Source: Antedon mediterranea (taxonomy: Eukaryota > Echinodermata > Crinoidea > Comatulida > Antedonidae). From it: a DNA stretch of 64,000 nt. The translations under genes and the position numbers were made by a program. The notes beneath the pieces are model-generated. The model was not told the DNA's origin, searched no databases, and saw nothing but the letters and a program-made list of their open reading frames with translations. This document shows positions 4,243 through 48,540 of the stretch, in pieces (position 1 is the first letter of the stretch; every line of letters starts with the position of its first letter). Location: contig NC_092671.1 in NCBI RefSeq assembly GCF_964355755.1, positions 14,488,501 to 14,552,500 of the forward strand, given 5' to 3'.

Positions 4243-24134
<19,892 letters not shown>

Positions 24135-33019: not shown

Positions 33020-33484
33020 TCAAAATGGAGGAACGTATCGTTTACATGTATACACTTCAGTTGTGTTATAGCAAACATCACACTCAACTTTACAACACCA
33101 AATAAAATTACATCTGCACATTGTTTCGACTTCTTCTGTTTTGGTGTCGTAGCCTCTACCGCAGCATAAACTGTCACAATTCTCGTCCTTCTGACACCGA
33201 CGTCCACCAGTACCTGGTGAATGAGCTGTCGGCTTACAGTAGTCTGGCGATTGATCTCTGTAAACCATTTCTGTTGAAAGTGGTTTACGAGGTGACATTT
33301 CTTTTAACAAGAGTCCCGGACGGGCTCCATTACCAAGTCGAACTTTTTGTGCGCTTTCATACTTTTGTTGAATTAATCTGGAAATGTTTTGAAAGGGAGC
33401 AAGTTGTTTCCAACATGTTTTAGTTGAGCACGTTGCTGAAATTCCGTGACATTTACAAGTCTTTTTCATTCCTTTCTTTACAAG
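33020..33484 (-). CDS. WNT9: WNT9 exon 4, C-terminal domain
   Basis: 465 nt including the TGA. It encodes the lipidation hairpin (CKCHGISATC, Thr codon ACG at 33431-33433) and the cysteine-rich C-terminal domain up to EVYTCKRYVPPF. It starts at LVKKGM after a TTTATAG acceptor, five codons upstream of the first internal Met. Confidence 0.94.
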   Translation of the reverse strand, partial: LVKKGMKKTCKCHGISATCSTKTCWKQLAPFQNISRLIQQKYESAQKVRLGNGARPGLLLKEMSPRKPLSTEMVYRDQSPDYCKPTAHSPGTGGRRCQKDENCDSLCCGRGYDTKTEEVETMCRCNFIWCCKVECDVCYNTTEVYTCKRYVPPF

Positions 33485-36400
33485 CTATAAATGTAAAAAT
33501 AAAACAGCAAAATTATGCACAGTGTAGATATTTTTGACAGCAATAACATTTTATAAACAAAAAACGATGTGTTGGCCTACATGACTGATAATACAGTATT
33601 ATTTCCCATCTTATTCTACCATAGCAGATTTGGGGTTTTCTACCTTTTCAGAAAATGAAGCCTACACATTAGGCCGCATAGATGATTATCTTCCTTTTAT
33701 GTTGAATTTAATATTTAATACCTAATTTAATCAGTAAATAACGAGGTAATCAGAATACTTTTTTCAAAACTTCCATTATTATATTATATTTTTCTTATTA
33801 TTTTACACAATTTTACAAAAAGTGTACATACATTGTTACAGCATTTGTGACCTATCGATACATAATATCAAACTTCAAATACACTGTACGCCTACACTTT
33901 TTGATTTGTTTGTTCTGAGTTGTAAAGTAGTCCTAATTCCATTGACTGTGTTTGCCAATTATTGCTATGTTTATTTGCTTTGTATTTCTCACAATGATTC
34001 TAACCGAACTTTGATAATAAATTATGGGAGAGAATAATAGTTGTAAATTCTTTTCTTCCGTTACCTGTAAATTCGAATAACTTACAAACAAAATAAATGT
34101 AAACAAAATATGTAAATACATTATTTATGTAGCACTAATACTAATAGTAAAAAAAAACTAAAATCAGACAAATAGTTCCATAGAGAAATCAGGTCACCTG
34201 GAGATTAGGCAAAGAGCCATTTAATCGTACCCAGACAATAATTAACCCTTTGCACTGTATATGTAGACTAAATTGAACAAGGGCAGTAGCGTAATCTGCA
34301 ATTGTTGAAATATATGTATTATTGTATTATTGTAACAAGAAATACACGTTGGGTTCAAGTCTACAACCATGGTACGAAGAGAAACAAATTACGCGCACGC
34401 GTGGAAATAGTCGTTTAGTCATTTTGACACACACGATTCAAGTGTCTTGGTGGTGTAGGGAGGAGTTCGATAATAAATGTTTTCATTCATTGGTATGGGA
34501 ATGTTACCACAACTCAATTGGAATTGCAGCAGTGAGGCCTACTCTTACATGAGATTTGCAGACAAATCAATTTTCGATAAAAAATAAACATAGCCAAATA
34601 TAGCAATTTAAAATTATGATATTGCAGATTTATGATATCACGAGATATGTTTACGTTGAGCCAATCTTTTAACATCGGCTGAGGAGACATGAAAGTACAG
34701 TATTGACAAGCTTAGTGACATATATCGCAATGCAATAAGGAAATTAATAAGTACAACGACAACCGCAGAGCAAAATGACCTTTATGGAGCATTATGTTCA
34801 TATAATTATAAGGCAACCAAACAAACGAAGAGTGGGATTTAAAACTTGAAATGTATGAATCTGGACGATGACAAAATGTAATACTCTAATTGATTGATAA
34901 CATTATATTAAGAGGAACCGCCGAGGGAGAAAAGCAGTAAAGCATAAAAGCCATCATCAAGAATTATTGCTTTTGTTTTTATTAGGCACATTTTTTATCA
35001 AGACCCGATTACACAATCGGTAAGGGTCCACTTCTTTTGAAAACGGTCATTAAATCAACTTTAATAAAACAAATATTTCAATTAATACTGTATTAAATAA
35101 TGGAGATAATTTAAAGCAAAGGTAAATAAGATTTGTTGATTCTATTCTATAGGCCTAGTTACAGTGAGTGTGTAAGCAGGGCTTCCACCACAGTAATAAA
35201 ACACTATTGTTAATAATCACACTTACCAGTACTCCTAAATCACTGTTATGTCTATCTAGTTTTTCTGTTGCATCGTTTCTATTATTTTTCAAAAATTCTC
35301 GTACAAATTTTTGACTATATTTCATATTGTCTCCACAGCCTCCCCATCTCCAGGTTTCCCGATTTTTATCAACATCAAACGTGGTTTCATCGCATGAACA
35401 CCGCAGTAGATGATTTCGGCTACATGCCCTAGCTATAGCATGGGATAGGCCTGCAGATGACACTGCATATAGGAATGATCCTTCTTTAAACCCTGTAAAT
35501 AAATAGAAAGATGATAGTACAAAAGTCGTGAGATACAGCACCACCTTTAAAGACATACAACAATCAGTCTGTACTCAAGATTACGCGTGAAGAACTCATG
35601 GTGTATTCTTAATATTTTAAAGACATACAACAATCAGTCTGTACTTAAGATTACGCGTGAAGAACTCATGGTGTATTCTTAATATTTTAAAGACATACAA
35701 CAATCAGTCTGTACTTAAGATTACGCGTGAAGAACTCATGGTGTATTCTTAATATTTTAAAGACATACAACAATCAGTCTGTACTCAAGATTACGCGTGA
35801 AGAACTCATGGTGTATTCTTAATATTTTAAAGACATACAACAATCAGTCTGTACTCAAGATTACGCGTGAAGAACTCATGGTGTATTTCTTAATATTTTA
35901 CAACTGTAGAAAAGCTTTAATACAGTATTGAATTTTCCTTAAAGGAAATTATACGTGTTTTTTAATAATTGAATAATGCAGAATTAATGACTTATGACAT
36001 GAGTTTCAATAAGAATATACACATACGTAACGTATAGGCTTAAATAGACCCATCCAAGATTGATAACTGTAACATGCTGAGTAATAATTAAGTGTTAATA
36101 AATTGAATATACCAAGTTGATAGAGGAACACTTAATATATGAGATATAAACAATTTCTATACAAATTTCATTTCGATGAATTATTATTCTAATATTTTTT
36201 ACTATTAAAAATACCGGTAGTTATTAATTTTTAATAAATGCAAAGTAGGCTAAATTTAAATACATTAGCGATAAAGGATTAACATTATTATTTTAATATT
36301 TAAAAAAAAAAGGACTTATATAATTTATTATCCGAGGTCATTCTGTAAATAATATTTTTTGCAGTGTGGCAGTGCGTAAAATTATTACAGGACTTTTTTT

Positions 36401-42400: not shown

Positions 42401-45400
42401 AAATGTAAGTTCTAATGCAATGATATACTCAATCAGAGTCATGGTACTGCTATGTTACAGGCGCCTATCGTATTTATTTCATATCATCACATTATTTGTG
42501 GGGGAGGGGAAGTTTAATTTCCCAAACATCGCATCATTTCCCTTCGTTGTAACCTCCTTGTTGACTGACTTGTCCTCATCTTGATTCGCAGAAAATGGTT
42601 GTAGTGCTTAAACATGTATTCCTGCTTACCGTATACTTTATAAGGGGAAATGAGGCCCTTAAATAGTGATACAAAGCAGAAGCACGAATATTACAAGTAA
42701 CGATTGAATGAAACGTTAAAAAAGGATGTCACGTCTAACGGTGAAAATAAACATGCATATATTAAAAAAAACATGTTATCGTCATTTTAACAGTTAATAT
42801 CCAGGCTGTATTAAGATTCACCAAGTGTATAATTGTTGAATAGATACAAATGGATACAAATAGATACAAATAATATTCAGTGGAATGAGACTGACGCTCA
42901 TGCATCTGGAATCCTAAATAGCATTAAACAATATTGCTTTGTTTTAAAGTTAAGTCTGTATAACCCTTATTCATTACATAACTTACATAACCAAATTTAA
43001 GAAGTGGAAGGTCTAACATGAAACTCCGGCAGAAACAGGTCCATATGAAACATTATTTTATATATTGTTTAATTGCCGAATATAGGAATATTTTAATATT
43101 TAGCGGAATAGTGTCGATCTGGAATCCTACAAAGCTTTATAAAATATTGTTTTTGTTTTAAATATCAATTATGAATATTATTTGTCGATAAAATTTATAA
43201 ATCTATAATACCTATATTCAATAAATAACTCCGGATTTAAGAAGTGGAATGTCTAACATGAAACTCCTACTATATGAAACATTTATTGTACGTATAATAT
43301 ATCGATATTTGTATTTCAATCGTTCAATGCTAACATCTGCTTTCGTTTATCAATCTTTCCTGTGTTTGGTTTATTTTCATAACGACTTTTACCTTTGAAA
43401 CAACTTACATCAGATTCGTTTATATGTTACATGACATGATAATATAATATGTTATATTGTCATTTTGTATTGATTCAGCTACTAGACTCTATGATCGTTC
43501 TGTCTTAATTCAAATCAAACACCCGACACAAAACAAAATGAGTACACGAAGGAGAAAACCATAATTAGGCCAAATCAAAAAAGAAATTGTCACGTAATTT
43601 TATTTTTTCATGGAGGACATTTAGTACTATTCAGCTATTGTGATATACTAACATAAGAATGATAGTGTAAAATGACCAAGCACCACAAAACGCTCGACGA
43701 TTACGCAATACGGTAAATTGAATTATTTATTATCTTTCAATTTTTAATGAATACGACAATTTTAGATAAAATATAAAAAAAAAATTAATGCGGTTCCAAC
43801 AAATGGAAATTTTAGCCTTAAAAAATAAAATAATATTTACTTACTATTTTTCAACAAATTTTTCTTATAGGATGAGTTACTAAGATCACAATTCCATCGT
43901 TCATTATGGAACTCATATAAGCAAGATCTATTGCTAATATCGATAGCCTCCTTTAAGACGTCGATCATACCTTCGTCTCGCCGACACATACTTCGTTGTT
44001 TGCCGTTAAGTCCAAGGAATTTACAATTGTTTTTGTCCAAACTTATTCGTCTGTTCGATAAAATCCTAGAATAAAGAAAGGATTTTAAGAAATAGAAATC
44101 TGGGATTGCATTATTTCCTAGCATTAAAAACATTAATATTAGTAATTAGCGATTGGTCTGTTTAACAGCAGAGCCAAATGTAACATTGCTTAATATGCAA
44201 TCGTATACGTAAACGGATCAACCCACCCGCCTCCTAAATTCAAGAATCACAATTCCATGCATGGTACTTACAGACTCTATATTCAGAAATTGTATATTGT
44301 ACTAAAGTGTACTGTCTACATGACAATAGTATGAGAGATTAATAGTAAAAAAATAAATATTTTGGCACACATGGCGTTTCGTACTGTATGTATAATAATA
44401 CTTATAAAATACTAATAAAAGCTCGAAATTTATTTCCAGACACAAATCGCAACGTTGACTGGTGGACTAACAAAAAGGACAATCAATGCAGACTCGGGGC
44501 AAGAGTTTAGTGTACAGTATTAGCCATGGGTATCTTGTAGAAACCGTGACAGAATAGGCTAGGCCTATTACGTTATTTAAAAAAACGTGCGCATAAACCA
44601 CAAAGCACAATCTGTGTGATCTGTAGGCCTATATTGCACTTACTAAAAACCAAATATAAAAGCTTACGTATACACATAAAATAAATCACTATAATAACAA
44701 TATCAGATTGTATAACTTGTTTATCGAATTATGTCGGCAACACTTAGATGTTTAGTAATGTTTTCATAACAGACAGAGAAGTTGACCTAGCAATATGATC
44801 GTATCGCTAATGTTATGACTATAAAACGCAACAAGTTTTCGTAAACAATGAAATGGGAAAGACATTTTGATGTAAATTGGTCGAAAATAAGTGAGTTGAA
44901 AGTGATGGCGTAATCTTCCTGACAAATAAGAAAGACTATACAGAACACAATAAGGACTAGTTCACACCAAATAACGTTTGCGTCAATGGTTGCTATTTAT
45001 AAATGCGTGGACACTCATTTCGTGTCTGAACTATCCCGTTAACTTGTATTGAGCTGATACTTAATGTAGGCCAGCGAACCACATTGGTTTCTTTTATACT
45101 CAGTCCTGATTCGGATATCTTCAGACGTATCACGTCCTTCCAGACAGCACAGAAATAACGTGTGCACAGCCATACAATTCTCTCATGTACGATAATCAGT
45201 TCACCTTAATTTTTATATGTGTTGAAATAAGAACAATCCTTATTCTTAATTATACAGTTTCCTTTGAGATATTATACCATAATTAGTTGAGACCTGGGAG
45301 AAAAGTGTTATTTAATGGATGACTTGGTAAAGAAAAACAATCAATTACTAAGTATAATGGACAATGACAATGTTTGGATAGTGTTAAATCTTGTATCATA

Positions 45401-48400: not shown

Positions 48401-48540
48401 ATACCTATACTTTTCTCACTCGTACTAAAAATACACCTATTAAAAGTCGACAAAATTACTACATACCCAAAGTAGGTTGAGCAGCTGGGCAGTAAACTAA
48501 GGCCAAAAAGAAGCACCATGAATAGGTACCCAAACTTCAT
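33020..48540 (-). CDS. WNT9: Wnt ligand of the WNT9 subfamily
   Basis: Secreted Wnt glycoprotein acting through Frizzled/LRP receptors. Exons on the - strand: 48467-48540, 43845-44065, 35227-35492 and 33020-33484; phases 2, 1 and 0 agree and give 341 residues (human WNT9A has 365). The N-terminus MKFGYLFMVLLFGLSLLPSC is a signal peptide, followed by STYFG, as in vertebrate WNT9. Exon 2 has CRRDEG and ERWNC. Exon 3 has FKEGSFLYAVSSAG and WRWGGCGDN. Exon 4 has TCKCHG and the WNT9-diagnostic KTCWKQLAPF, HSPGTGGRRC, CCGRGYDT and EVYTCK. I count 24 cysteines outside the signal peptide, a full set. The position that is Ser in SGSC of other Wnts, the Porcupine-acylated residue, is Thr205 here (SATC). 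WNT9 is convergent with USP47 and in tandem with GOSR2. The subfamily call rests on the C-terminal signature and is firm. Confidence 0.94.
35227..35492 (-). CDS. WNT9: WNT9 exon 3
   Basis: 266 nt from a TTTACAG acceptor to a GTAAGT donor. It encodes FKEGSFLYAVSSAGLSHAI, then CSCDE and WGGCGDN with four conserved cysteines. A 70-bp tandem array begins about 60 bp upstream of its acceptor. Confidence 0.93.
35551..35898 (-). repeat. 70-bp tandem array beside WNT9 exon 3
   Basis: Five copies at an exact 70-bp spacing, with AGACATACAACAATC starting at 35551, 35621, 35691, 35761 and 35831. Copies are almost identical, differing mainly by a C/T in GTACTCAAG versus GTACTTAAG, which indicates recent expansion. 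Confidence 0.95.
38080..38345. repeat. Diverged CT-rich repeats in WNT9 intron 2
   Basis: The word CGCCTACT recurs at 38087, 38191 and 38304, within units that also share CTCATTCGTA and TTTGCAAC. The spacing is about 104-113 bp. The copies are strongly diverged, so this is an old minisatellite. Confidence 0.55.
42900..43300. repeat. Degenerate direct duplication in WNT9 intron 2
   Basis: TCTGGAATCCTA and, further on, ATTTAAGAAGTGGAAGGTC with ACATGAAACTCC occur near 42905-43025 and again near 43118-43265, about 215-235 bp apart. The intervening sequence is alignable but diverged. Confidence 0.55.
43845..44065 (-). CDS. WNT9: WNT9 exon 2
   Basis: 221 nt between a TTCTAG acceptor and a GTAAGT donor. 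It encodes the first four conserved cysteines, including CRRDEG and NERWNC, and ends at LLKN. Confidence 0.92.
44066..48466 (-). other. WNT9 intron 1
   Basis: A 4.4-kb AT-rich intron. Apart from the foldback MITE at 46252-46431, no structured element or extra exon is seen. Confidence 0.65.
46252..46431. mobile_element. Foldback MITE in WNT9 intron 1
   Basis: About 180 bp with long arms: AGTTTGGTTTCCACTAGCGA then CGCAACGCAAGGACGTAACG on the left, and the reverse complement of a closely related arm on the right ending AGTGGGAACCAAGCT. The centre repeats TCGCTTGTGATTG-type words in both orientations. GC-richer than its surroundings; no coding capacity. Confidence 0.8.
48467..48540 (-). CDS. WNT9: WNT9 exon 1, signal peptide
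   Basis: 24 codons plus two bases encode a hydrophobic signal peptide ending SCSTYF(G). A GTATGT donor follows. The phase-2 exit fits exactly the one-base entry of exon 2 and recreates the YFG of vertebrate WNT9. The reading frame stays open into the intron to 48340, but that extension is not Wnt-like. Confidence 0.85.

Follow-up and report, generated by a model that had tools for sequence, protein, structure and literature searches.

The window analyzed here, a 64-kb stretch of the Antedon mediterranea genome, carries a WNT9 gene of four exons on the minus strand. Exon 1 (48467–48540) contains the start codon and a hydrophobic N-terminus (MKFGYLFMVLLFGLSLLPSCSTYFG) and ends at the donor GTATGT. 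A match to positions 4–59 of the Pfam wnt family (PF00110) lies inside exon 2 (43845–44065), exon 3 (35227–35492) matched the family at 6.6e-23, and exon 4 (33020–33484), which encodes the thumb hairpin and the cysteine-rich C-terminal domain up to the stop codon, matched it at 4.6e-48. Joining of the four exons gave a protein of 341 amino acids, and each of the three introns begins with GT and ends with AG. The hydrophobic start, a putative secretion signal, was chosen from a basic tally of hydrophobic residues, the exon boundary, and inspection by eye; the STYFG in exon 1 is similar to the N-terminal end of mature human WNT9. The translated gene model contains 25 cysteines, 24 of which are located downstream of residue 22, in agreement with the 24 cysteines counted in the first-pass annotation. 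The GC content of the window ranged from 0.30 to 0.34, and tRNA and Rfam scans of the 64 kb returned no matches.

The PF00110 matches in exons 2, 3, and 4 and the conserved cysteines place the protein in the Wnt family. Its C-terminal domain has 16 cysteines, the same number as in each of the 11 other Wnts found in this genome (two of the 12 domains were joined by eye from two pieces). In a BLAST search against human C-terminal domains, WNT9B was the best match at 140 bits, followed by WNT7A at 122, and the match with WNT9B was reciprocal, with 45% identity. The protein also shares the short region SPGTxGRxC with WNT9B of the vertebrate pair WNT9A/WNT9B. Wnt3 is located approximately 2.2 Mb from WNT9 on the same contig (C2), and WNT3 and WNT9 are likewise linked in human. 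The WNT9 assignment is based on the BLAST result, the shared region, and this linkage. The tree placed both WNT9 rows, from this genome and from human, on long branches that it left unresolved; the best solved structure was Wnt-7a, with no WNT9 among the PDB matches, and NCBIfam returned no family for exons 3 and 4.

Exon 4 alone was modeled with AlphaFold at a pLDDT of 76.9 and a pTM of 0.39. Foldseek returned eight matches to this model under an E-value of 0.001, all of them Wnt chains, with query TM-scores of 0.39–0.41 and an rmsd of more than 10 Å. Given these values, we take from the model no more than a hairpin with the threonine in the loop joining two strands.

The hairpin that contains the Porcupine site reads CHGISATC (TGT CAC GGA ATT TCA GCA ACG TGC) and occupies 33428–33451 of the minus strand. 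The residue at the position acylated, as serine, in other Wnts is Thr205 (codon ACG, 33431–33433), and it is preceded by Ala204 (codon GCA, 33434–33436). The rebuilt gene and the Pfam matches thus bear out the gene family, the site, the residue number, and the threonine given in the first-pass annotation, as well as its view that the neighboring Gly-to-Ala replacement is a separate change; its interval of 33428–33455 includes the motif but runs four bases too far. The Thr205 column was Ser in the five PDB alignments printed among nine matches in one search and in the five printed among 11 in another. This column is established as that of the acylated serine, which is regarded as the functional hallmark of Wnts and corresponds to Ser187 in Xenopus Wnt8; Porcupine, which acylates it, is a drug target. 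The human WNT9 motif is CHGVSGSC. The acylated residue is named Ser209 in WNT3A (PMC10112924) and S224 in Wnt1 (PMC3202554). The WNT9 hairpin matched the Wnt3a peptide in two PORCN structures, 7URD at 2.9e-5 and 7URE at 7.5e-5; the resemblance to these Porcupine-bound peptides is judged from these match values.

Applied genome-wide (354 Mb), the Pfam wnt model gave 38 matching pieces, which we read as at least 12 genes. The 12 genes and their 12 hairpin-bearing exons are a lower bound, as only the best candidates were scored and some of the genome may have lain outside the search. Seven of the 12 carry Ser at the acyl site (L001, L002, L003, L005, L006, L010, and L011). Thr was found in four, namely L004 (Wnt3, CHGISGTC, C2:16.72 Mb), L007 (Wnt6, CHGLSGTC, C2:4.01 Mb), L008 (WntA/Wnt11-like, CHGVSATC, C6:2.22 Mb), and WNT9 itself (L009), and Ala in one, Wnt2 (L012, CHGVSGAC). 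The Thr codon is ACG in WNT9 and ACA in each of the other three, and the neighboring codons differ. The residue preceding the acyl site is Gly in 10 genes and Ala in L008 and WNT9, the two that share SATC, and the serine two residues upstream is kept in all 12. The Pfam pieces of Wnt2, Wnt3, Wnt6, WNT9, and L008 span the family from position 2–4 to 305; the sole stop reported in them is a TAG in the piece from the last exon of Wnt6, inside the splice acceptor TTTTTAG. Chance is not at issue: the rest of the protein around the hairpin is conserved, and five of the 12 genes encode a residue other than Ser at this codon.

Subfamilies were assigned by BLAST against 12 human C-terminal domains. Reciprocal best matches were obtained for 10 of the 12 genes: Wnt5, Wnt1, Wnt16, Wnt3 (Thr), Wnt7, Wnt6 (Thr), WNT9 (Thr), Wnt8, Wnt4, and Wnt2 (Ala). 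The nearest solved structure to L004 was Wnt-3, at 8.1e-61. Neither L006 nor L008 was reciprocal; the location of L006, no more than about 30 kb from Wnt1 and Wnt6, makes it a probable Wnt10, and L008 could be WntA or Wnt11. The tree paired eight genes with their human counterparts (support values of 98/93 for Wnt16, 100/99 for Wnt8, 97/97 for Wnt3, 93/95 for Wnt7, 87/82 for Wnt4, 86/94 for Wnt2, 88/77 for Wnt1, and 91/89 for Wnt6). Only the Wnt16, Wnt8, and Wnt3 pairings reached the program's mark of strong support, and Wnt5, WNT9, L006, and L008 were left unplaced. The Wnt3 subfamily is not known from protostomes, in which it has been lost; the presence of a Wnt3 gene and the bindin match described below both point to an echinoderm. 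A search of the 18 contigs for mitochondrial COX1 gave no match.

The known human Wnts carry Ser at the acyl site. If Ser was ancestral in each subfamily, then in the simplest history of these genes Ser would have been replaced by Thr on four separate occasions and by Ala once in the descent of this animal. Among the titles and abstract openings in the literature searched, which leaves several key papers in subscription journals outside, none reported Thr or Ala at a natural Wnt acyl site, which is not proof of novelty. It is unusual, and open to test, that five of 12 Wnts lack the canonical serine and that one of these five has alanine instead.

Genes for the lipid machinery were also sought. 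A single Porcupine gene (C9:25.42 Mb) was recovered among at least seven MBOAT matches, of which weaker ones may have been missed. Two of its exons matched human PORCN structures in the PDB (1.3e-13 and 5e-8), and matches to the human PORCN sequence reached the C-terminus of that protein. Both segments in which we place the catalytic Asn and His, WNLP and AASSLLH, are present. Wntless is encoded by an intronless frame of 556 residues that matched human Wntless at 3.7e-186, and a gene of the PAE/Notum family is located on C7. The pathway that adds and uses the Wnt lipid, and maybe the step that removes it, therefore appears from these matches to be present.

Two features near these genes were also observed. 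Wntless occurs as two tandem copies approximately 9.6 kb apart (L023, C5:18795400-18797700, and L021, C5:18805500-18807500), which agree at 1817 of 1837 aligned columns. The first copy is the open, intronless frame of 556 residues, and the second is broken by a frame-shifting difference of two bases. The Porcupine introns (L018, C9:25416500-25420500) contain a repeated element in which the words 'gctctgtctacactatcaaac' were seen by eye at least twice, together with partial inverted copies.

The Ala codon of Wnt2 (L012/L022, C9:24169300-24170700) is GCT and lies in an otherwise well conserved, open gene. Wnt2 scored 63.9% against human WNT2, the next being Wnt4 at 63.7%, and its end branch of 0.19 was the shortest of the 12 in the tree. 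Because Wnt2 is among the least diverged Wnts of the set, we regard its alanine, on present sequence evidence, as the most striking single change and as a stranger finding than the threonine of WNT9. Alanine cannot take the lipid as Ser does. With such a Wnt2, which has no acceptor at the acyl site, lipid-free Wnts may thus be tolerated in this animal. When the serine of WNT1 or Wnt3a is changed to alanine, the mutant proteins lose secretion or signaling through beta-catenin (PMC3202554), which counts against reading the Wnt2 alanine as idle. A short-query PDB search with the Wnt2 hairpin gave chance matches to TAL repeats at the top, with Wnts ranked lower.

Our preferred interpretation, which we hold to be likely, is that this is an ordinary WNT9 in which the acyl-acceptor Ser has been replaced by Thr, that Porcupine most likely acylates Thr205, and that the lipid would be used as in other Wnts. 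Threonine offers the same hydroxyl as serine, and for this reason acylation of Thr205 is the most likely reading. Palmitoleate would be transferred to the Thr205 hydroxyl by the animal's own Porcupine in the ER, perhaps with lower efficiency than at serine; Wntless would then carry the acylated protein out, and WNT9 would bind Frizzled through the lipid like other Wnts. Among the readings offered in the first-pass annotation, that of a threonine acylated perhaps less efficiently appears to be the best supported, as the hydroxyl is kept, Thr occurs in four of the 12 Wnts, and Porcupine is present. Ala204, a second change beside the acyl site that may influence Porcupine, weighs against this reading. 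Taken alone, the Ser-to-Thr change in WNT9 is probably conservative and is therefore of less interest by itself.

A laboratory mutant with the identical substitution at the equivalent site offers a precedent: WNT1 S224T, but not S224C, was reportedly tolerated in palmitoylation and activity in work by Miranda et al. in FEBS Lett in 2014. That mutant is man-made and belongs to WNT1, whereas the threonine described here is natural, occurs in four Wnt genes, and in two of them adjoins a Gly-to-Ala change. Neither WNT1 S224T nor S209T in Wnt3a was mentioned in the literature searched, which was available in part.

Alternatively, WNT9 could be unacylated and work without lipid in the manner of Drosophila WntD, which we consider unlikely. 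WntD, a Wnt that like WNT9 is without the acylated serine, acts without Wls and Porcn according to PMC3202554 (citing Ching et al.) and PMC10112924, and the secretion and activity of non-acylated Wnt mutants vary according to PMC7873896 (citing Speer 2019). The alanine of Wnt2 in the same genome agrees with such a possibility. However, WntD is also without the flanking residues (PMC3202554), whereas WNT9 retains the hairpin and, with Thr205, the hydroxyl; the absence of a hydroxyl acceptor was found in Wnt2, whose alanine in an intact hairpin brings it nearer to WntD than WNT9 is. Porcupine, Wntless, and the Notum-family gene are all retained, mutation of the serine is said to hold Wnts in the ER (PMC8415634), and secretion of WNT1 S224A was three- to four-fold less (PMC3202554). 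The lipid-independent Wnt raised in the first-pass annotation is thus not needed for WNT9, whose threonine keeps the hydroxyl; lipid-independent action appears to fit Wnt2 better, and its alanine is the better place for that question.

It is quite improbable that in WNT9 and Wnt2 the lipid goes to a different residue in the region of the hairpin, such as Ser203, through Porcupine. All 12 Wnt genes found retain the equivalent of Ser203, and a WNT1 S224A peptide was still weakly modified through Porcn, implying a secondary site within residues 209–239 (PMC3202554). However, the equivalent serine occurs irrespective of the residue at the acyl site (Ser, Thr, or Ala), and its conservation therefore does not point to a new role; the secondary modification in WNT1 is weak and its residue unnamed in the text consulted.

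Decay of WNT9 with a neutral change at the codon was judged very improbable. The WNT9 branch in the tree is long (2.14), as is that of human WNT9B (1.97), but the gene retains an open frame of 341 amino acids with clean splice sites, its C-terminal domain keeps the full set of 16 cysteines, and its N-terminus is hydrophobic. An error in sequencing or assembly, for which the single-base difference between TCG and ACG speaks, or a rare allele, is most improbable, since the reading frames are open and Ser is replaced at this codon in five separate genes spread over three contigs, with Thr in three paralogues (C2 and C6) whose neighboring codons differ and Ala in a fourth (C9).

The three additional Thr Wnts and the Ala of Wnt2 bear on the lineage as a whole, in which the Ser-only constraint seems to be relaxed. 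A stronger form of this proposal, which we offer tentatively and with more doubt than confidence, is that the Ser-only rule has broken down in the lineage, with four Wnts using Thr esters and a conserved Wnt2 signaling without any acceptor at the site. If this is true, Thr esters may be formed at a different rate or may resist Notum to a different degree, and signaling range may differ as a result. A genome in which five of the 12 Wnts found lack the acyl serine is a natural experiment. It raises the questions of whether Porcupine naturally accepts threonine, whether Notum strips the lipid from Thr just as readily, and how alanine is accommodated in a Wnt2 that is normal in other respects.

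Two minor observations were made apart from the Wnt genes. Positions 16285–16986 of the window contain a stop-to-stop frame of 233 residues that is rich in Asp, Glu, Asn, and Ser and has a hydrophobic stretch near its start. A bindin match was obtained at 2.3e-28; it covers positions 98–163 of 238 and includes one TAA.
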